A DNA stretch of 64,000 bases from Arachnia propionica (GTDB taxonomy: Bacteria > Actinomycetota > Actinomycetes > Propionibacteriales > Propionibacteriaceae). Within the stretch, counting starts at the first letter, position 1; every line of letters begins with the position of its first letter. Made by a program: the position numbers and the translations under genes. The stretch covers positions 1 through 64,000 of the forward strand of contig NZ_RQYT01000015.1 of the NCBI RefSeq assembly GCF_003932785.1, given 5' to 3'. Shown here piece by piece: positions 9,681 through 26,005 of the stretch. Below the pieces are notes generated by a model. The model had not been told where the DNA came from. It saw nothing but the letters and a program-made list of their open reading frames with translations, and did no database searches.

Positions 9681-12299
9681 ATGAACCCGGGCAGGGGCAG
9701 GCGTTCCGCACGGGACCACACCGTCGTCGTGTGGCTGGTCGGCGCCCTCATCGTCGCCATCGCCCATCGAGTGGTGCCGGGGTCCACATGGCTGATGGTG
9801 CACCTCGTCCTCCTCGGCGCCGTCACCCATTCGGTGTTCGTGTGGAGCCAGCACTTCACCGCGGCGTTGCTGCGGAACCGCCCCGACGAGACCCGCGCCC
9901 GGCAACAGAACCGCAGACTCACCCTCCTCGCGCTCGGGACGCTGGCGGTCCTCGTCGGGGTGCCCGCCACCTGGTGGTGGCTCGTCGTCTCCGGGGCGGT
10001 TCTGGTCTCCGTGGCCGTCCTGTGGCACGGCTGGTCGCTGTGGGGGCAGCTTCGGGTGGCACTGCCCGGCCGCTTCAGGATCGCGGTCTGGTACTACGTG
10101 TCCGCGGCGGTCCTCCTGCCCGTCGGGGCCGGGTTCGGAGCGGTGCTGGCCCTTGGCCTTGACGCCACCTGGCACTGGAGGCTGCTCGTCGCCCACACCA
10201 TGACCAATCTGCTGGGGTGGATCGGCCTCACGGTGGTCGGCACCCTCATCACCTTCTGGCCGACCGTGCTCCGCACCCGCATGGACGACCGGGCCGAACC
10301 ACTCGCCAAGGCCGTGCTGCCGTGGCTGATCGGGGCCGTCCTCGTGGTCGTCATCGGGGCCATGACCGGGGTCCGGGCGGTCGCCGTGGCCGGACTCGTC
10401 GGCTACCTGGCTGGACTCTGTGTCTGGGGGCGGAGCCTCGTCGCGCCGCTGCGCACCCGTCCGCCACGCGAGTTCGCCTCGGCCTCCATCCTGGCCGCGA
10501 TGCTGTGGGGAGTGGCCGCCCTCGTCATCACCGGATGGGTCGTGCTCCTCACGCCCCCGGCCGGGTGGAGCGCGTCAGCGACGCTGCTGGCGACGGTGTG
10601 GGCGGGCGGATTCGCCGTGCAGCTCCTCACCGGAGCGCTGAGCTACCTGCTGCCCTCCGTGCTCGGCGGCGGTCCGCGAGTGGTCCGGGCGGGGGCGAGG
10701 TGGTTCGACAGGTGGGCCGCCTTCCGGCTCGTCGCCATCAACGGGGGACTGTTGCTGGTCCTGGCGCCCACTCCCGACGGGGTGCGGCTCCTCGCCGCTG
10801 GCTGTTGCGTCCTCGGCGCCGGGCTGTTCATCCCCCTGATGTTCGGGGGCATCCGGGCAGGCGTCGCCGAGCGTCGAGCACTGGCGGACGAGCAGGGCGC
10901 CGGGAGCCGACCGGCAACGGGAGAGACACCCCCGCGCCCCTCCGCCTTCACCATGAACGGTCTGATGGCCGGGGCCATGGCGTTGACCATCGCGGTGTCG
11001 GTGGGCATGGGACTCGGTCGCGTCACCCATGAGGACCCCGGCGGTCAGGCGGTGACCCCGACCGGGAACACCGTTCGGGTCCAGGTCAAGGCCGAGGGGA
11101 TGCGCTTCGTCCCCGACTCCGTGGCCGTGACGGCCGGCGACCGGGTCATCATCGAACTGGTCAACGCCGACCCCGCCATGGTCCACGACCTGAAGCTGGC
11201 CGGGCGGACCACCCCTCGCCTCGCGGCGGGGGAGCGGGCCGAGCTGGATCTCGGGGTGGTCAGCGAGTCGACACAGGGATGGTGCACCGTCGTCGGGCAT
11301 CGGCAGGCCGGGATGGTCCTCGACCTCCAGGTGGCGGGCGCGGCCCCGTCGCCCGAGGAGGAATCGCACCGTGGCGGGCACCATCACGGTCCGGCCCGGG
11401 CGGATTCGGCCCCGTTGCAGGAGGTCGTGGACCCGGTCGCCCCGCCCCTTCCCGAAGGCACCGTCCATCGCGTCGAGATGCGGGTCACGGAGGTGCCCCT
11501 GGAGGTGGCGCCCGGGGTGTGGCAGCGCCGCTGGACCTTCAATGGCAAGGCCGTCGGGCCGACGCTGCGGGGCCGGGTCGGTGACGTCTTCGAGATCACG
11601 CTCATCAACGACGGCACCATGGGGCACTCCATCGACTTCCACGCGAGCAACCTCGCGCCCGACGAACCCATGCGGACCATCGCGCCCGGCGAGAGCCTGG
11701 TCTACCGGTTCACCGCGCAACGGGCCGGGATCTGGCTCTACCACTGCGGGACACCGCCCGTCTCCTCCCACATCGCGGCGGGGATGCACGGTGCCGTCAT
11801 CATCGAACCCGAGGCAGGATTCCCGGAGGTGGACCGGGAGTACGTCGTCGTGGCCTCCGAGATCCATCTCGTCGACGGTACCGGCGACAGCCCCGGAACC
11901 GCGGCTGACGTGGACGCCGCCCAGGCGCAGACCGACACCCCCGACTACTCCGTCTTCAACGGCATCGCCCACCAGTACATCCAGCGTCCGTTCGAGGCCA
12001 GGGTGGGGGAGAAGGTCCGGTTCTGGGTCCTTGCGGCGGGCCCGAACCTCAGCACCAGCTTCCACATCGTCGGGGCACAGTTCGACACGGTGTACCTCGA
12101 GGGCGCCTACCTGTTGAAGGATCGCGTCGACCCGTTCGGCAATGTCGGCGGCGGCTCGCAGGCCCTCGGCCTCGAGGCCGCCCAGGGAGGTTTCGTCGAG
12201 ACGGTGTTCCCCGAGGCCGGGCACTACACCGTCGTCGACCATGCCTTCCTGGATGCCGAACGCGGAGCCATCGGCACCGTCGAGGTCACACCCTCCTAG
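9681..12299 (+). CDS. Membrane-cupredoxin-copper nitrite reductase fusion (NirK-type)
   Basis: 872-residue protein in three parts. Residues 1 to about 455 hold roughly 12 hydrophobic segments, including HTMTNLLGWIGLTVVG, reminiscent of the heme-copper oxidase/NorB-like membrane fold. Residues about 465-555 form a cupredoxin with all expected type-1 copper ligands (His in VHDL; Cys, His and Met in WCTVVGHRQAGM). Residues about 590-872 form a two-domain copper nitrite reductase: HSIDFH supplies the active-site Asp652 and type-2 ligand His654; YHC (His688, Cys689), SSHIAAGM the remaining ligands; SFHIVG and VDHAF correspond to the second-domain active-site and type-2 histidines. It should reduce nitrite to nitric oxide outside the membrane. 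The stop shares CTAG with the convergent next gene. Confidence 0.87.
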   Translation: MNPGRGRRSARDHTVVVWLVGALIVAIAHRVVPGSTWLMVHLVLLGAVTHSVFVWSQHFTAALLRNRPDETRARQQNRRLTLLALGTLAVLVGVPATWWWLVVSGAVLVSVAVLWHGWSLWGQLRVALPGRFRIAVWYYVSAAVLLPVGAGFGAVLALGLDATWHWRLLVAHTMTNLLGWIGLTVVGTLITFWPTVLRTRMDDRAEPLAKAVLPWLIGAVLVVVIGAMTGVRAVAVAGLVGYLAGLCVWGRSLVAPLRTRPPREFASASILAAMLWGVAALVITGWVVLLTPPAGWSASATLLATVWAGGFAVQLLTGALSYLLPSVLGGGPRVVRAGARWFDRWAAFRLVAINGGLLLVLAPTPDGVRLLAAGCCVLGAGLFIPLMFGGIRAGVAERRALADEQGAGSRPATGETPPRPSAFTMNGLMAGAMALTIAVSVGMGLGRVTHEDPGGQAVTPTGNTVRVQVKAEGMRFVPDSVAVTAGDRVIIELVNADPAMVHDLKLAGRTTPRLAAGERAELDLGVVSESTQGWCTVVGHRQAGMVLDLQVAGAAPSPEEESHRGGHHHGPARADSAPLQEVVDPVAPPLPEGTVHRVEMRVTEVPLEVAPGVWQRRWTFNGKAVGPTLRGRVGDVFEITLINDGTMGHSIDFHASNLAPDEPMRTIAPGESLVYRFTAQRAGIWLYHCGTPPVSSHIAAGMHGAVIIEPEAGFPEVDREYVVVASEIHLVDGTGDSPGTAADVDAAQAQTDTPDYSVFNGIAHQYIQRPFEARVGEKVRFWVLAAGPNLSTSFHIVGAQFDTVYLEGAYLLKDRVDPFGNVGGGSQALGLEAAQGGFVETVFPEAGHYTVVDHAFLDAERGAIGTVEVTPS

Positions 12300-13696
12300 T
12301 TGTCGTAGCAGGTGATGTGGACGTGGTCCTTGTGGTTGGCGGTGTCGCTGCCACGGCTGGACATGTTCCGCCAGCCCTCCCTGTCGCGGGTGATGTTCCA
12401 GATCTGCTGGTTCCAGATGATGTAGTGCACCCGGAACTCCTTGTGGTTGGCCTTGAAGAAGTTCGCGATCTCCTGACCCAGGGCATGGTTCCTGCGGTAG
12501 TTCGGGATCATGATGTCGACGGCGCGCCCGGCGGGATGGTCCGGGGTGACGTCACGACGCCAGCCGTACATCGTCTTGATGGCCGGAATGTTCGCCCAGA
12601 CGTGACGGACGATCTTCTTGATGTTGGCGTTGGTCTGGTCCAGGCCGCTCGACCAGCCGCGGTTCAGGGTGCCGCCATCGCCCCCGGAGGAGGCGGCCGC
12701 GGGCGGGGTCGCGCTGACGTACCGGGCCGTCACCCAGCGCATGGTCCCGTTGTGCAGGATCTGGGCGCGAGCGTGCTCGACGACGCCCGTGACCTGGAGC
12801 TCGCTGCCCTTGGCGATCGTGCCCGTGTAGTCCTTGCCGGTCGAGGAGTGCCACACGTTGAGTTCGGCGGTGGCGTACTTCGTCGTGGTCGTCGGCTGCG
12901 GGGTGGGGGCCGGGGCCGGGGCTGAAACCGCTCCCACCTCGACGAGGAACTTGGCGTTGAACCAGCGGAGATTCCCCTGGTACAGGGCCTCGGCCATGCC
13001 GTTGCGGACCACGCCCGTGCAGTCGAGGATGGTGCCCTTCGGGACATCGCCCAGCGACTTGTAGTGGCGGTCCGGGGTGGTGCGGATCATCAGCGCGGTG
13101 GTGGCCCGCATCCGCTTGGTCGTCTGCGGGGCCGGTGTCGGAGCGGGGGCAGGCGCCGGGGCCGACGCGTTCTGCGTCGACAGGTACCGGGTCGCGCCCC
13201 ACAGCGTCTCGCCCTGCCAGACCACCTGGGTGAAGCTGCCGCTGGTGCTTCCCGTGAGGCCGAGCCTCGTCCCCTTGCGCGCGACGGTGCGCACGGAGGA
13301 ACCCAGGCTGGGACCGGTGCGGAGGTTCAGGTTGACCGTCGTGACGGCCTCGCCGGCCTGGCCCGTCCCCGTCGGCGGGGCCGGTGCGGCGTTGCCGCCG
13401 TCGCTGACCGGGGTGAGGTACTTGGCGAACACATAGGCGGTGGCTCCCCGGTACTCGACCCTGGACCAGCCGTTCTCGGTGCTGTGGACGACGATGCGCT
13501 CCCCCTTGCGCAGTCGCCCCACGCGGGCGTGTCGGGTGCTGGGGCCCTTGCGCACGTTGACGGATGTGGTGGCCTGCATGGTGGCGTTGGCCGCATCCGC
13601 TCCCGCCACGAAGGGCAGGGAGCCCACTGTCTGCATGATTCCTGCAGCCATTCCGGCCGACAGGACCACCCGTCTCGTCTGCACGATCCGATTCAC
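12296..13696 (-). CDS. Secreted multi-SH3b protein with M15-like/ARB_07466-type cell-wall hydrolase domain
   Basis: 466 residues. The start VNRIVQTRRVVLSAG is a signal peptide with a TRR motif that could be Tat-like; cleavage probably after the ADAANA region. Four bacterial SH3 domains follow, spaced by Ala/Pro linkers (for example VNVRKGPSTRHARVGRLRKG and LNLRTGPSLGSSVRTVARKG), which usually bind peptidoglycan. The last 120 residues contain DHPAGRAVDIMI and NHKDHVHI, the zinc-ligand pattern of the small hydrolase family seen at the end of many actinobacterial wall proteins. GTG at 13696 has GGAGGA 5 nt upstream. Its stop overlaps the nitrite reductase stop. It has a long upstream region. Confidence 0.82.
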   Translation of the reverse strand: MNRIVQTRRVVLSAGMAAGIMQTVGSLPFVAGADAANATMQATTSVNVRKGPSTRHARVGRLRKGERIVVHSTENGWSRVEYRGATAYVFAKYLTPVSDGGNAAPAPPTGTGQAGEAVTTVNLNLRTGPSLGSSVRTVARKGTRLGLTGSTSGSFTQVVWQGETLWGATRYLSTQNASAPAPAPAPTPAPQTTKRMRATTALMIRTTPDRHYKSLGDVPKGTILDCTGVVRNGMAEALYQGNLRWFNAKFLVEVGAVSAPAPAPTPQPTTTTKYATAELNVWHSSTGKDYTGTIAKGSELQVTGVVEHARAQILHNGTMRWVTARYVSATPPAAASSGGDGGTLNRGWSSGLDQTNANIKKIVRHVWANIPAIKTMYGWRRDVTPDHPAGRAVDIMIPNYRRNHALGQEIANFFKANHKEFRVHYIIWNQQIWNITRDREGWRNMSSRGSDTANHKDHVHITCYDN

Positions 13697-17490: not shown

Positions 17491-17526
17491 GCGTCCGGGT
17501 CCGGAGGCGTGGCTGAGGCGCAGCAG

Positions 17527-17599
17527 TGCCCCCAGCGGGGCTCGAACCCGCGACCCGAGGATTAAAAGTCCACTGCTCTGCCAGCTGAGCTATAGGGGC
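17527..17599 (-). tRNA. tRNA-Lys (anticodon TTT)
   Basis: Minus strand: acceptor GCCCCTA with TGGGGGC, D arm GCTC/GAGC, anticodon loop CTTTTAA giving TTT, T arm GCGGG-TTCGAGC-CCCGC, discriminator A. CCA is not encoded. The anticodon stem GTGGA/TCCTC carries a T-T mismatch at the second pair. Confidence 0.93.
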
Positions 17600-17636
17600 G
17601 TTGGAATTGTAGTACGGGTCGGGGCAATCTTGAAGG

Positions 17637-18224
17637 GTGGGTGACTGGATCGGACTCGTGGTGGCGCTGGCAGTGGGGGTGCCGCTTCTCCTCGCGGCGG
17701 TGTGGGGTGACGTGCGGCGACGCCGTCGCAGCGAGGGCCCCGTGGAGGACGCCGGGGTCGGCTACCTCACGGCCTCCGAGATTGCCGCCATGCCCGCCCC
17801 GCCCGCCGCGGCACGACACGACGTCGAGGCGGGGACCCTCCTGCCGTTGGGACACGCTGACCCCGGGTTCGCCGACGCCGACGGGAGGGTCGAGTTCTCC
17901 GACGCCCGGATCCTCATGATCCGGGGCGCCGGCCTGACGATGCGGGAACTCATGGTGCCCCTGTCGCGCCACCAGCCGCTGGTGATCGTCGCCGAGGAAC
18001 TCGACCCCGAACTCGTCGACACCCTCGTCGCGAATCGCCGGGCCCTGCACCTGCTCGTCGTGGCCGTGGTCACCCCCGGCGACGCAGGCATCGCGGAACT
18101 CACGGGGGCCGAGCCCCTCGACGTGTCGGACCTCAAGGCCGGCTACGTGCCTGAGGAGGCCCTCGGCCGCGCCGCCACCTGGGTCAGCGACGCGGAGACG
18201 ACGAGGATCGTCCCCGCTGAATGA
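17637..18224 (+). CDS. Membrane-anchored protein with a GroEL apical-domain-like fold
   Basis: 195 residues. An N-terminal membrane segment (IGLVVALAVGVPLLLAAVWG, residues 5-24) and an Arg-rich stop-transfer (RRRRR) suggest a single-pass protein with its main domain in the cytosol. The remainder lines up with the substrate-binding apical domain of GroEL: PLVIVAEELDPELVDTLVAN corresponds to the GroEL [20 protein letters not shown] segment, IAELTGAEPL to IATLTGG-V, and the end DAETTRIV to KDTTTIV. The equatorial ATPase and intermediate domains are absent, so it cannot be a chaperonin by itself. Function is unknown. GTG at 17637 lies 6 nt after CAATCT, a weak leaderless-type -10 box. Neighbours are a tRNA and a repeat region, giving no context. 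Confidence 0.72.
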   Translation: MGDWIGLVVALAVGVPLLLAAVWGDVRRRRRSEGPVEDAGVGYLTASEIAAMPAPPAAARHDVEAGTLLPLGHADPGFADADGRVEFSDARILMIRGAGLTMRELMVPLSRHQPLVIVAEELDPELVDTLVANRRALHLLVVAVVTPGDAGIAELTGAEPLDVSDLKAGYVPEEALGRAATWVSDAETTRIVPAE

Positions 18225-20466: not shown

Positions 20467-23400
20467 TCATCCCTGCGTGATGACCACCTCGTTGATCGTG
20501 GAACGGAACCGTCCCTCCTGGACCTGCGGCAGCTTCGTCAGGTACACCAGCAGGTACCGTGCCTTGACCGGCTGCTCCGGGGTGAGGGTGGCCTCGGTGG
20601 GGGCGTCGGCGAGCTTCGCGACGACCTCCCACTGGTCCTGCCGATCCATGGGGGCCTTGGCGGCGCCCGCCTGCTTCGGCACCCTGAGCTCAACGTCCTG
20701 GCCCGCGTCGGCGAACAGCAGCTGCACGGAGGCCACGGGTGCCTCCACCCCGAGATCCAGCACCAGCCCGACGCCGGGCTTCTCGCCGCCCATGTCGGGG
20801 CGGTTCCGGTACCTGGCCGTCGACCAGCCCGTGCCGGGATCCCCGTCGAGAACCAGCGGGGCGTCCTCGGGATTCTCGTCCCCGGAGCCGTTGTCGGCCG
20901 TGGGATCGAACGACGTGGCGCTGATCCGCAGCTCGACCGGTGCGGGTGGAGCCTCCGTCGCATCGCTCGTGGCGTCGCCGGTGGTCGTCGACGCCGCCGG
21001 CGGGACGGCCGCCTCCTTGGGTTTCTGGTTGAGCGCCGCGATCACCAGGCAGATGATGAGGGTGCACAGGGAGAGCACCAGCACCGTCAGGACCAGCGGA
21101 CGGCCGGTCCGGGAGTTCGGCGACTCCCCGTGCTCCTGGTCGGTGTGGCGTGACCGTGGTGTCTGGGGGGCGGCCGGCGGTGGCGGCGGTACCTTCACCG
21201 CCTGCTGCACCGAGGTGGGGCGCTCCGCCTCCGGGTCGGCGACGGGATCCGGGATCGGCTCCAGGGCCGGCCTCGGGCGGGGGTGCCCCTCCGGGTTCTG
21301 CCGGGCCAGACGGACCCGGGCCTCCAGATTCGAGGAGGCGTCCGCGCCACCCAGCACCTCGTCGAGGCGGGCCGCCAGCTGGGACGTCGTGGTGATCCGT
21401 GGGTCCGAGACCGCCCCCCTCAACGTCAACGTGGCCGAACAGATGCGGTCCAGGGCGGGGGAGACCCCCGACGTCACGGTGTGCGCAGGAGCGGTCTCGC
21501 CCGCGATGATCGGGGCCGCCGGCAGTCCCCAGGCCGAGGCCCCGGGCCAGTGCCGCACGAGCATCGCGTACAGCAGGCTCGCGAGCCCGCGCACGTCGTT
21601 GGCCTCGCGGTCCCCCCAACTCGTCGTCCGGCCGGCGTTGATGCCTGCCTCCACCCCGAAGCCCACCAGCTTCACGGCGCCCAGCGTGGTGATGACCACG
21701 TTGTCGGGGTTCAACTGCTCATGGAACAGGCCCTGTGCGTGCAGCGAGGTGAGCGCGTCCGCGAGTTCCCGCACGACCCAAGCCGCCTCGACCGTGCTGA
21801 ACGAACCGAAACGCAGCAGGTCGGTCAGCGAGGCCCCCTTCGCGTACTCGCACACCACGTAGCCGCCGAGACCCCGGATGTCGTCGTCGACGCTCACCGC
21901 GTCGAGGACCCTGAGGAACCGTGAATCCGTGGCGGTCGCACCCTTCCGGGCGGACTGCAGCAGCCCCTCGATGTGAGGGCTGTCGGCCGGGATGACATGG
22001 GCGACGACGTCCCGGGAGAGGACCATGTCGTGGGCACGCCACGTCTCCACGCCACTGCGCACCGCGAGGATCTCCTCGATCCGGAAACGGGTGGAGAGCA
22101 GATCGCCCGGCTGGAGCAACGAGTCGACCCCCTGGGAGGCCTCCGGGCGCGCCTGCCAGACGACGCTGGGCTCCGTTGGCTCGTCGACGACGGCAGGCAG
22201 CACCGTCGTGTCCGTCGAATCCTCCATCTCGATCCGCTGTGAGATCGGGGGCAGGACCGGCTCCTCCGCCTGCCTCCGGTGATGGTTCGGCATCCGGGCC
22301 ATGTCCCACCCGTTGTAGCCGCCGTCGGCGATGATCGTGTGGATGCTCGTCGGCATCATGTCGTCGACGAGGGCTGCCGCCGTGGCGGGTTCCAGGGCGA
22401 TGGTGGGGCGCAGCGACTCCGAGTCCTCCTCCGCGACCCCCGGATCCGCCGCGGGTCGGCGTCCGCCCAGCCGGTTCCGCACGAGATCCGTCATGCTGCG
22501 CAGCTCGCGCACCTTGAGGAGCTTTCCGACGGTGGCGTAGATGGCGCCGAGGAAACCGCCCCCCACGAGCATCGCGAGCAGGGGACCGAGGACGCTGCCG
22601 GACAGCGCCCCCATGATCCAGTCGGCGAGGAACCACGCCACCACCGAGCCGAGGGCGGCCCCGAGCGACAGCCGAGCGATGTGCAGCAGCAGATCCCGCC
22701 CGTTGAGGCCCGGCACGTGCTGCCGCAGCTTCCGCCAGCTCAGCTGCACCCCCACGAAATAGGACACCGAGTACGCCAGGGCCAGCGCCGCGGCCGTCCA
22801 CAGCGGGTTTCCCACGAGATGGACCAGAGCCAGGGCAGCCACGGCATTGACGGCCGCGATGATGCACTGCAACAGGAACGGGGTGCGGGTGTCCTCCAGG
22901 GCGTAGAAGGTGCGCAGGCACACGAACTGGACGGTGAACGGGATGAGACCCACCGCGAATGCCATGAGCGTCCAGGCGATGAGCACCGCGTCACGGGACC
23001 CCTGCCCGTGGCCGAACAGCAGCACCGACATCGGGCCGGACAAGGCGATGAAGGCGAACGAGGCGGGGACCAGGGCGATCAGGGCCAGCCGCAGGGTCTT
23101 CCGGGCCTCCTGGGCGACCCCGTCGAGATCCCCGGCCGCCGCCAGCCGTGACGCGTTCGGCAGCATGGCGGTCGCGAGGGAGACGGTGATGAGGGAGTGG
23201 GGGAGGATCCACATCAGGTGGGCGTTGGCGTAGACGCTCGAGCCGCCGCCCGCCCCCGTCGCCGTCGCCGAGGTCGCCAGCCGGTTCACGAGGATGAGCA
23301 CCAGCTGGTTGACCGCGACGAAACCGAGGGTCCACTTCGCCAGGTGGAACGTGTGGCCGAGGCCGACCCCCCGGAGGTCGAAGCGGGGACGGAAACGGAA

Positions 23401-24114
23401 ACCGACCTTCTTGATGAAGGGGACGAGAACCAGTGTCTGGATCACGATGCCGACCGTCGAGCCGAGCCCGAGCAGCAGGATCTGGGGCTGCGTGAACGGG
23501 CCCCCGTGATCCCCGGCGTTGCCCCACACCACGAGGTAGATCCCCAGCACCATGAGCGAGACGACGTTGTTCGCGATCGGCGCCCACATCATCGGCCCGA
23601 ACTGGTCCCGTGCGTTGAGGACCTGGCCGAACAGGAAGAACACCCCGTAGAAGAAGATCTGCGGCAGGGTGCAGTAGGCGAGCGCCACCATCGAGGCGTA
23701 CTGGTCGGTCAGCTCGGGGGCCCGCCAGGCCGAATCGGAGTAGAACGACGTCACGACGGGGGCCGCCAGGGTCATGAGGGCGGCCACCGCGCCGATGACC
23801 AGCATGAAGGCCGTGATGACCCGGTTCGTGTACGCCTCGCCCCCGTCCTCGTCATGACGGATGGCGCGCACCATCTGCGGCACGAGCACCGTGTTGAGGG
23901 CGCCACCGGCGAACAGGATGTACAGGGCGTTGGGGATGGTGGTGGCGATCGAGAGGATGTCCGCCTGGCGGGTGCCGTTGCCGAGGATGAAGGCGATGAG
24001 CATCACGCGGATGATGCCGAGGGCGCGCGAGACGAGGGTGCCGGCCGCCATGAGGACGCTCGCGGACAGAAGCTTCCGCGTGCTGCTGACCCCGCCCTTG
24101 TTGCTACTGCTCAC
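20467..24114 (-). CDS. murJ: MurJ/MviN lipid II flippase fused to a pseudokinase
   Basis: 1215 residues. The first 530 form the MurJ/MviN fold with about 14 membrane segments (start SSTRKLLSASVLMAAGTLVSR), the flippase for lipid II. A linker leads to a kinase-like domain at about 650-900 (LLSTRFRIEEILAVRSG onward) that has lost its catalytic residues: HRD is replaced by LFHEQLNPDNVV, DFG by VGFG, and the VAIK lysine by VVAHVI, so it is a pseudokinase. A further membrane segment (VLTVLVLSLCTLIICLVIA) and a secreted beta-rich domain follow, as in mycobacterial MviN, where the pseudokinase recruits a partner to control wall synthesis. GTG 24114 overlaps the DUF6049 gene by 11 nt; the same pair occurs in mycobacteria. 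Confidence 0.9.
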   Translation of the reverse strand: MSSSNKGGVSSTRKLLSASVLMAAGTLVSRALGIIRVMLIAFILGNGTRQADILSIATTIPNALYILFAGGALNTVLVPQMVRAIRHDEDGGEAYTNRVITAFMLVIGAVAALMTLAAPVVTSFYSDSAWRAPELTDQYASMVALAYCTLPQIFFYGVFFLFGQVLNARDQFGPMMWAPIANNVVSLMVLGIYLVVWGNAGDHGGPFTQPQILLLGLGSTVGIVIQTLVLVPFIKKVGFRFRPRFDLRGVGLGHTFHLAKWTLGFVAVNQLVLILVNRLATSATATGAGGGSSVYANAHLMWILPHSLITVSLATAMLPNASRLAAAGDLDGVAQEARKTLRLALIALVPASFAFIALSGPMSVLLFGHGQGSRDAVLIAWTLMAFAVGLIPFTVQFVCLRTFYALEDTRTPFLLQCIIAAVNAVAALALVHLVGNPLWTAAALALAYSVSYFVGVQLSWRKLRQHVPGLNGRDLLLHIARLSLGAALGSVVAWFLADWIMGALSGSVLGPLLAMLVGGGFLGAIYATVGKLLKVRELRSMTDLVRNRLGGRRPAADPGVAEEDSESLRPTIALEPATAAALVDDMMPTSIHTIIADGGYNGWDMARMPNHHRRQAEEPVLPPISQRIEMEDSTDTTVLPAVVDEPTEPSVVWQARPEASQGVDSLLQPGDLLSTRFRIEEILAVRSGVETWRAHDMVLSRDVVAHVIPADSPHIEGLLQSARKGATATDSRFLRVLDAVSVDDDIRGLGGYVVCEYAKGASLTDLLRFGSFSTVEAAWVVRELADALTSLHAQGLFHEQLNPDNVVITTLGAVKLVGFGVEAGINAGRTTSWGDREANDVRGLASLLYAMLVRHWPGASAWGLPAAPIIAGETAPAHTVTSGVSPALDRICSATLTLRGAVSDPRITTTSQLAARLDEVLGGADASSNLEARVRLARQNPEGHPRPRPALEPIPDPVADPEAERPTSVQQAVKVPPPPPAAPQTPRSRHTDQEHGESPNSRTGRPLVLTVLVLSLCTLIICLVIAALNQKPKEAAVPPAASTTTGDATSDATEAPPAPVELRISATSFDPTADNGSGDENPEDAPLVLDGDPGTGWSTARYRNRPDMGGEKPGVGLVLDLGVEAPVASVQLLFADAGQDVELRVPKQAGAAKAPMDRQDQWEVVAKLADAPTEATLTPEQPVKARYLLVYLTKLPQVQEGRFRSTINEVVITQG

Positions 24115-26005
24115 GACTCTCCCTGGCCTGTTCCTTCTGCACCGTTCTGATCCGCAGCAGGGTGCCTCCCAGCACCACTGCACCGGAGACAATGATGATG
24201 ATCCAGCCGACGCGCCCGAAACCCGTTGCCGTGACCTCCACAGGGATGACAGGTCCGAACCTGGTGCCGCTGGGGGTGGACAGCTGGGCGGACACGGTGA
24301 CCACCCCGTTCGCCTTCGCCACGGGGGCGATGCTCACCGTCTGCTGCTCGCCCGGGGCGATCGTGACGACCTCCGTCGCGGGGATGTAGATCCTCGTCGG
24401 GGAGTTGCTGGTGAACTCGACCCGCAACCGCACCGGTTCCTGCAGCGGGTTGCTGACCGTCATCGGGAAGACGTTGCGATCGGAACCCATGACGAACTGG
24501 CTGGCGGAGGTGAGCCGGATCTGCGCCGCGTCGACATCCCCGCTGGGATGGGCCGAGATGAACTCCAGTGCCTCCTTCTCCGAGTCGAAGTCCGCGCTGT
24601 TGGCCAGGGCGGCCCGGGTGGCGTTGAGACCGGTCCGGTCCGTCCCCGTCAGTTCCTCCAGCAGCTGGGACTCGCTGAACAGCTCCTGGGAACGGGTCAG
24701 CAGGGAACGCCACGGCGTTGCCGAGGCGGGATCCACCTCGAAGTGGGCGGCCTCCCTCGGAACCGGCAGCGCCACCGGGGTCTCGGCGTCGGGGATGAGT
24801 GGGAGCCGGGTCAGTTCCGACGCGCTGCGTGCCAGGTGGACACGGGTGTTGCCGCGCAGGATCTCGTCGGCGAGGCGACGCTGGGTCACCTGGACGGGGG
24901 ATGTGGTGGAGCCGGGGCCGATGCCCGGGCGGCCGAGTGGATCCACCAGCAGCCCCGATGTTGAGGAGCCACCGATCGTGCCGCTGGAGACGAGGTTGTC
25001 ACCGAGGACCCAGCGGTAGCCGGAGCGGGCCAGGATGAGGGCGAGATCCTCGTTCGCGTGGTTCCCCAGATCCGCGGCGAGCGGCAGGGAGGCGAGCTGC
25101 GCCATCTCGGAGGCCTGCAGCGCCGTCTCCGACCAACCGAGGGCCGTCTCGAACTCACTGAGCGAGCCCGTTGCGTGAAGGCGAGGCAGGTCGGGGTTGC
25201 CGAACGGCAGCCGTATCACCCGGCCCTGGGAGACGAGGCTCCGGACCCGTTCGAGGAAACGCCCGGCCAGTGGGTTCCCCGGCTCCTCCGCGCCCGCCAC
25301 CTCGTGATCCGAGGCCAGGACGGTCAGTTCGGCGAGGAGGGCCGGATCCACCAGTAGCAAGCGGTGGGGCTCCTCCGCGGCGGACAGGAGGGCGTCGAGA
25401 TCCCCCTCGATCCTTTGCGCCAGGGAGTGGTCCACGAAGTTCCTCTCCCCGAACAGGGTGGGGCGATGGGTCAGCTTCACCACGCTCGCCACGGGGAGCT
25501 TCGCAGTGGTGGCGGGGGCGAGGATCCGGCCCCGGCCGACGGTGGTGCGCCCCCGGTTCTCGCGCGTCGCCCGGACGTGGACTCCCAGCAGGTACACCGC
25601 GTCATCCTGGTCCAGGGTGAGATCCCCGATGGTCGCGCTGACCTGGAAGGTCGTCGACTCGCCGGGGGCGAGGGCCTCGACGAACATGACGTTCGCCTCG
25701 TTCAGCAGCCGCCTGCCCAGGGGATTCTCCGGCGAGGATGCCAGGGCGGTGTCGAGGTCGTCGAGCGAGACGAGGGGCTCGGTGTCCCGCCAGAAGTGGA
25801 TGGTGAGGTCCGTCAGGGTGTCGGAGGTCGTGTTCCGAACCGTGCCGGTCAGGGTGACCACCTGATCGGGCTGGTCGAGCCGGAGCAGGCTGGGCGCGAA
25901 GGAATCGAAGTTCACCTCCACACTCCCGTCAGCCCGCGCCGGGGAAAGGCCGAGGGACAGCGCCGCCATCACCAGCAGCACGCAGAACACCAGCCTTCTC
26001 ATCAC
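24104..26005 (-). CDS. DUF6049 family secreted membrane-anchored protein
   Basis: 633 residues. The start VMRRLVFCVLLVMAALSLGLSPARADG is a signal peptide. The body is an extracellular region with CARDB-like beta segments (VVTLTGTVRNTTSDTLTDL) and a long alpha/beta core. One membrane segment (VGWIIIIVSGAVVLGGTLL) lies near the end, followed by a short basic tail. The gene immediately precedes murJ and overlaps it by 11 nt, the conserved actinobacterial order (Rv3909-Rv3910 in M. tuberculosis), so a role in the lipid II flippase complex is likely but unproven. The start GTG at 26005 is preferred to ATG 26002 because TACGAT lies 6 nt upstream, a leaderless arrangement; they differ by one residue. 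Confidence 0.82.
   Translation of the reverse strand: MMRRLVFCVLLVMAALSLGLSPARADGSVEVNFDSFAPSLLRLDQPDQVVTLTGTVRNTTSDTLTDLTIHFWRDTEPLVSLDDLDTALASSPENPLGRRLLNEANVMFVEALAPGESTTFQVSATIGDLTLDQDDAVYLLGVHVRATRENRGRTTVGRGRILAPATTAKLPVASVVKLTHRPTLFGERNFVDHSLAQRIEGDLDALLSAAEEPHRLLLVDPALLAELTVLASDHEVAGAEEPGNPLAGRFLERVRSLVSQGRVIRLPFGNPDLPRLHATGSLSEFETALGWSETALQASEMAQLASLPLAADLGNHANEDLALILARSGYRWVLGDNLVSSGTIGGSSTSGLLVDPLGRPGIGPGSTTSPVQVTQRRLADEILRGNTRVHLARSASELTRLPLIPDAETPVALPVPREAAHFEVDPASATPWRSLLTRSQELFSESQLLEELTGTDRTGLNATRAALANSADFDSEKEALEFISAHPSGDVDAAQIRLTSASQFVMGSDRNVFPMTVSNPLQEPVRLRVEFTSNSPTRIYIPATEVVTIAPGEQQTVSIAPVAKANGVVTVSAQLSTPSGTRFGPVIPVEVTATGFGRVGWIIIIVSGAVVLGGTLLRIRTVQKEQARESREQ

Follow-up and report, generated by a model that had tools for sequence, protein, structure and literature searches.

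The closest described counterparts of the protein considered here are the engineered GroEL minichaperones (GroEL residues 191-345 and 191-376, and the T. thermophilus fragment GrAD, residues 190-333), soluble laboratory fragments which fold as a single domain and have no ATPase. In the accessible parts of two reports (PMC9138447 and PMC4973282), isolated GroEL apical domains of about this size are described as able to bind unfolded proteins alone in vitro. The protein is encoded in a 64,000-nucleotide stretch of Arachnia propionica DNA (contig NZ_RQYT01000015.1, positions 1 to 64,000, referred to below as the window), and it shares with these fragments nearly the same limits (GroEL 191-335), the fold and the lack of an ATPase, but it is made from a natural gene, carries a membrane helix and has deletions and a changed groove. 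The profile, fold and genome evidence supports the conclusion that it is a membrane-anchored GroEL apical domain without the equatorial and intermediate domains. Among the titles and abstract openings listed in searches of open-licence literature, none described a natural apical domain of a group I chaperonin that stands alone or is anchored in a membrane, although fold-superfamily databases may already label proteins of this kind. Engineered fragments have served to study whether a cell can benefit from an apical domain by itself. With a natural protein of the same extent the question becomes directly testable: one can ask what the protein binds, whether membrane tethering takes the place of the ring as the source of avidity, and in what way a domain of a chaperonin is given a new use.

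Compared with the group I chaperonins GroEL/Hsp60 (NCBIfam TIGR02348; Pfam PF00118), with which it shares a homologous apical domain, the window protein lacks the equatorial ATPase and the hinge, scores under the family cut-offs and carries a membrane helix. As far as the accessible part of PMC2846930 describes them, the Fab1_TCP domain of PIKfyve/Fab1 is likewise an apical-like domain outside a chaperonin, and BBS6/MKKS, BBS10 and BBS12 are likewise diverged chaperonin paralogues with altered substrate-binding positions. However, Fab1_TCP is of group II (CCT3-like) and lies inside a large eukaryotic kinase, whereas the window protein is small, membrane-tethered and of group I, and the three BBS proteins, which are eukaryotic and of group II, keep the three-domain structure.

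The homology to chaperonins is seen in both sequence and fold. Searched as a single sequence against NCBIfam, the protein matched seven chaperonin models, six of them at E<=0.001 (best 5.6e-7) and the seventh at 0.03; the six alignments all fall inside profile positions 196-333, and all matches are far under the cut-offs (28.2 bits for the best model against a cut-off of 352). The PDB sequence search gave 59 matches at E<=1 (best 1.7e-6), and every tabulated one is a chaperonin with its apical part aligned. In the structure comparison, most rows align the model with the GroEL apical domain, starting at about GroEL 188-191 and reaching 335; the compact fold ends near GroEL 335, and the identity to E. 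coli GroEL is about 26% over the aligned stretch. Conversely, a profile of the family scored 74.9-96.8 bits against all 21 real GroELs, compared with at most 9.3 bits for 1050 shuffled GroEL copies (901 reported) and 1.9 bits for 21 reversed copies (19 reported). A search of PHROGs added one weak GroEL match (E 0.0071). The apical identity proposed in an earlier note on this DNA is thus borne out by NCBIfam, PDB and structure comparison together, and neither a different fold nor a set of matches to unrelated families alone was obtained. On the other hand, the Pfam Cpn60_TCP1 search which that note had recommended would have missed the protein: no Pfam model matched it even at E 10, Cpn60_TCP1 matched none of the 39 family members at E<=0.01, and the members yielded one stray match to DUF7269 (E 0.0082, in one of the 39). 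This means that Pfam Cpn60_TCP1 can miss such proteins and that others may be hidden.

The reading frame lies exactly where the earlier note had placed it, its translation holds the motifs quoted there, and the single N-terminal membrane segment described there is present (mean Kyte-Doolittle value 2.55). The absence of the other two GroEL domains, which the note had also claimed, holds for the frame and for the genome. The profile match is confined to the apical part, residues 1-64 consist of the helix and a linker with no intermediate (hinge) domain, and no equatorial ATPase domain is found in the 195-residue frame. The ring contacts of GroEL lie mostly in the equatorial domain, which this protein lacks. 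The frame opens only one codon ahead of the GTG, and PF00118 matches the host genome only in two complete GroELs, which lie on other contigs (C94 and C107), so no equatorial or intermediate part has been split off nearby; a split groEL was ruled out, there being no second part in the genome.

With a 39-row profile, a full-length match (starting at profile position 1-21 and ending at 217-222) was found besides GroEL in 47 of 57 Propionibacteriaceae genomes. The ten genomes without one (G502, G504, G508, G005, G137, G145, G077, G023, G526 and G095), which are apparent losses or assembly gaps, comprise nine with two GroEL matches each and G502 with none. In the 53 genomes of the sister families f2-f4, every match at E<=1e-5 lies in a frame of at least 535 aa. 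Among the 70 genomes sampled from the phylum, only that of the window had a full-length match in a frame shorter than 300 aa, besides one broken complete groEL, to which the short frame G553:C2 (216 aa, with two TGA, away from any contig end) was assigned; a second frame under this length (G555:C142, 254 aa) stands at a contig start and covers profile positions 76-143 only. At L086 (1958-3582), in an assembly of the same phylum, groEL is broken into several frames, probably through sequencing or assembly errors. In a class sample of 394 genomes, proteins of this kind were present, among the matches listed, only in G000 and G001, both Propionibacteriaceae, the rest being in frames of at least 360 aa. 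When 27 genomes with at least three matches were re-examined, every match at E<=1e-8 lay in a frame of at least 329 aa, and three weaker matches (E 7.8e-7 to 8.2e-4) lay in short frames of 108, 272 and 279 aa. A contig scan gave two close relatives only.

When 39 apical proteins and 21 GroELs were placed in one tree, a branch with 100/100 support set all the apical proteins apart, for which a single origin would be the simplest reading; with 1.62 changes per column, this branch is too long for the source GroEL to be identified. Furthermore, dN/dS is 0.18-0.37 across five pairs more than 70% identical, and the gene is apparently under purifying selection across many genera. The alignment of 39 members leaves out L042 (a 593-aa frame from a sister family matching the query at 5-110, with no apical match), L043 (from the G092 region, where the gene was later given by the profile search) and L004 (a duplicate of L033). 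The start of L023 was corrected by hand; those of the other members were assigned by a rule favouring ATG close to the helix and are provisional. Genome G119 has two different apical-domain genes (L010 and L035) on two small contigs and in separate subgroups of the tree, which a second copy or contamination may explain.

In all 40 rows examined, which stand for 39 distinct proteins (L004 and L033 being one gene), three to six K/R fall within the 15 residues that follow the membrane helix; ahead of it there are none in 39 rows and one in the remaining row. By the positive-inside rule, this excess would place the apical domain in the cytosol, with the short N-terminus outside. Within the helix, position 14 is G in 38 members and A in one, and position 21 is G in 22 and A in 17. 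Small residues at heptad-like spacing often pack helices together. Because these two positions are one heptad apart, self-association of the membrane helix is possible, and it may restore some of the avidity of the ring.

Conservation in the groove was examined for the 39 members and 21 GroELs, with positions given in E. coli GroEL numbering. The residues which we take to form the client-binding groove of GroEL are Y199, Y203, F204, L234, L237, L259, V263 and V264. Seven of these eight are also named as functional in the accessible part of PMC2741606. A large hydrophobic residue is kept in most members at F204 (36/39), L234 (36/39), L237 (37/39) and L259 (33/39), the position of V264 is always A or V, and that of N265 is N in all 39. 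By contrast, a large hydrophobic residue is mostly lost at Y203 (1/39) and V263 (9/39), and about half of the members keep one at Y199 (21/38). The position of R231 is R in 36 members, while the 21 GroELs vary there, and E252 and D253, which are invariant in the GroELs, are kept in four members each. Moreover, helix H of the window protein is four residues shorter than in GroEL. The losses at Y203 and V263, the near loss of E252 and D253 and the short helix H would speak against a plain copy of GroEL. Outside the groove, D165 (37/39), G169 (38/39), P172 (37/39), G177 (39/39; shared with GroEL as G318) and W182 (32/39) are conserved, and so are, nearer the membrane, D25 (39/39) and Y43 (35/38), together with a Pro at the position of V36 (35/37) from which the window protein itself differs. 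As to function, the earlier note had offered a holdase or a repurposed peptide-binding domain as possibilities. The partial conservation of the substrate-binding positions makes a specialised binder more likely than an all-purpose copy, and in combination with the family's own conserved motif it suggests that the domain kept part of the peptide groove and gained features of its own.

Considering these observations, we assume, with a probability of roughly 0.45, that this is a single-pass inner-membrane protein which displays a lone GroEL apical domain on the membrane surface and would act there, tethered and ATP-free, as a holdase or client receptor. Other proteins close to the membrane would be held by short segments, partly hydrophobic or extended, in the groove that the equivalents of helices H and I form between them; neither ATP nor a ring would be needed, the specificity would be narrowed and specialised relative to GroEL, and the conserved small residues of the membrane helix could, through self-association, regain part of the ring avidity. 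The analysis shows the domain with its limits, the hydrophobic helix, the conservation and the chaperonin homology, while the topology, the binding of peptides, the oligomerisation and the kind of ligand are inferred. The fuller proposal, of a natural dedicated minichaperone whose apical domain was cut from GroEL once, in a single bacterial family, tethered by a self-associating helix to the cytosolic face, and which works at the membrane surface as an ATP-free chaperone or client receptor apart from the two GroEL machines, is somewhat doubtful as a whole.

The same groove might instead serve a dedicated receptor rather than a chaperone, binding one partner at the membrane, such as the GroES mobile loop, the cell's own GroEL-GroES, or a membrane or division protein. 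The client groove of GroEL also binds GroES. The accessible part of PMC2741606 lists N265/T266 and N206 under GroES binding, two full GroELs coexist with the protein in its genome, and the mixture of kept and family-specific groove positions, with R mostly kept where GroELs vary, is the pattern expected of a narrowed specificity. However, no partner was found for such a receptor, and nine of the ten family genomes without the protein still carry their two GroEL matches; we consider it rather unlikely. Still less probable, in our view, is that the apical fold was reused as a scaffold, with an old groove that no longer binds peptide and a new site made of the D-L-x-A-G-Y-x-P...L-G motif and the membrane-proximal segment. 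None of the most conserved residues listed above for the regions outside the groove is known as a substrate-binding residue of GroEL, and the frequent loss at Y203 and V263 fits such a change, but the F204, L234, L237, L259 and invariant N265 positions are retained, and among the newly invariant residues some, such as Gly and Pro, may serve the structure alone. A decaying relic or a chance groEL fragment without function, for which the losability of the gene could be cited, was rejected as very improbable on its distribution, dN/dS and place in the tree, since the frame stays full-length in most of the family and has invariant residues, and a promoter-like site stands at a fixed distance before it in 25 of the 39 members.

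Coordinates of the apical-domain gene and its features in the window
Feature	Position	Strand	Remark
Apical-domain protein CDS	17637..18224	+	195 aa, GTG start, TGA stop; membrane-anchored GroEL apical-domain protein
Transmembrane helix, residues 4-22	17646..17702	+	Hydrophobicity; G/A at 14 and 21 in 39/39 members
D25 and Arg cluster 27-31	17709..17729	+	Presumed cytosolic side (positive-inside)
Linker, residues 32-64	17730..17828	+	Structure model confidence low
GroEL apical domain, residues 65-194 = GroEL 191-335	17829..18218	+	Profile and structure matches
Helix H equivalent, residues 102-111 (R103=R231, M106=L234, L109=L237)	17940..17969	+	Model and alignment
Helix I equivalent, residues 124-133 (V127=L259, V131=V263, A132=V264, N133=N265 invariant)	18006..18035	+	Model and alignment
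Conserved motif D-L-K-A-G-Y-V-P...L-G, residues 165-177	18129..18167	+	Family-specific; 39-member alignment
CAATCT, possible -10 box	17625..17630	+	Start codon 6 nt downstream; possibly leaderless transcript
tRNA-Lys(TTT), upstream neighbour	17526..17599	-	tRNA search

The promoter-like site is a hexamer resembling a -10 box, [CT]A NN [ACG]T, which ends 5-9 nt before the start; in 1000 rounds of base shuffling the pattern was found in 1.9 members on average and in eight at most. The pattern was picked after inspection of the upstream sequences, and a consensus scan gives it no support, having detected a single terminator-like site, on the opposite strand, and nothing of the sigma-70 promoter type, so that the promoter is only suggestive; the hexamer would fit a leaderless transcript and the chosen start codon.

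Neither in the window nor in the other loci did the gene neighbourhood give a functional partner for the apical-domain protein. At 12 of 23 loci a tRNA-Lys gene is found upstream, no more than 300 nt from the frame edge, and a gene for an SH3-repeat surface protein lies 0.27-3.4 kb downstream on the same strand in 16 of the 22 loci other than that of the window; gaps of this size point to no operon partner. In the window, a relative with SH3_3 repeats is found at 12296-13696 (-), 3.9 kb upstream of the apical-domain gene and on the other strand, which suggests a local rearrangement. The gene is surrounded there by patatin-like, alpha-amylase/amylosucrase-like, cation-efflux and kinase/pyrophosphorylase genes. 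In addition, the window encodes at 20467-24192 (-) a fusion protein that joins a MurJ lipid II flippase (PF03023, E 9.5e-88) with a protein-kinase-like domain (PF00069, E 5.3e-9).
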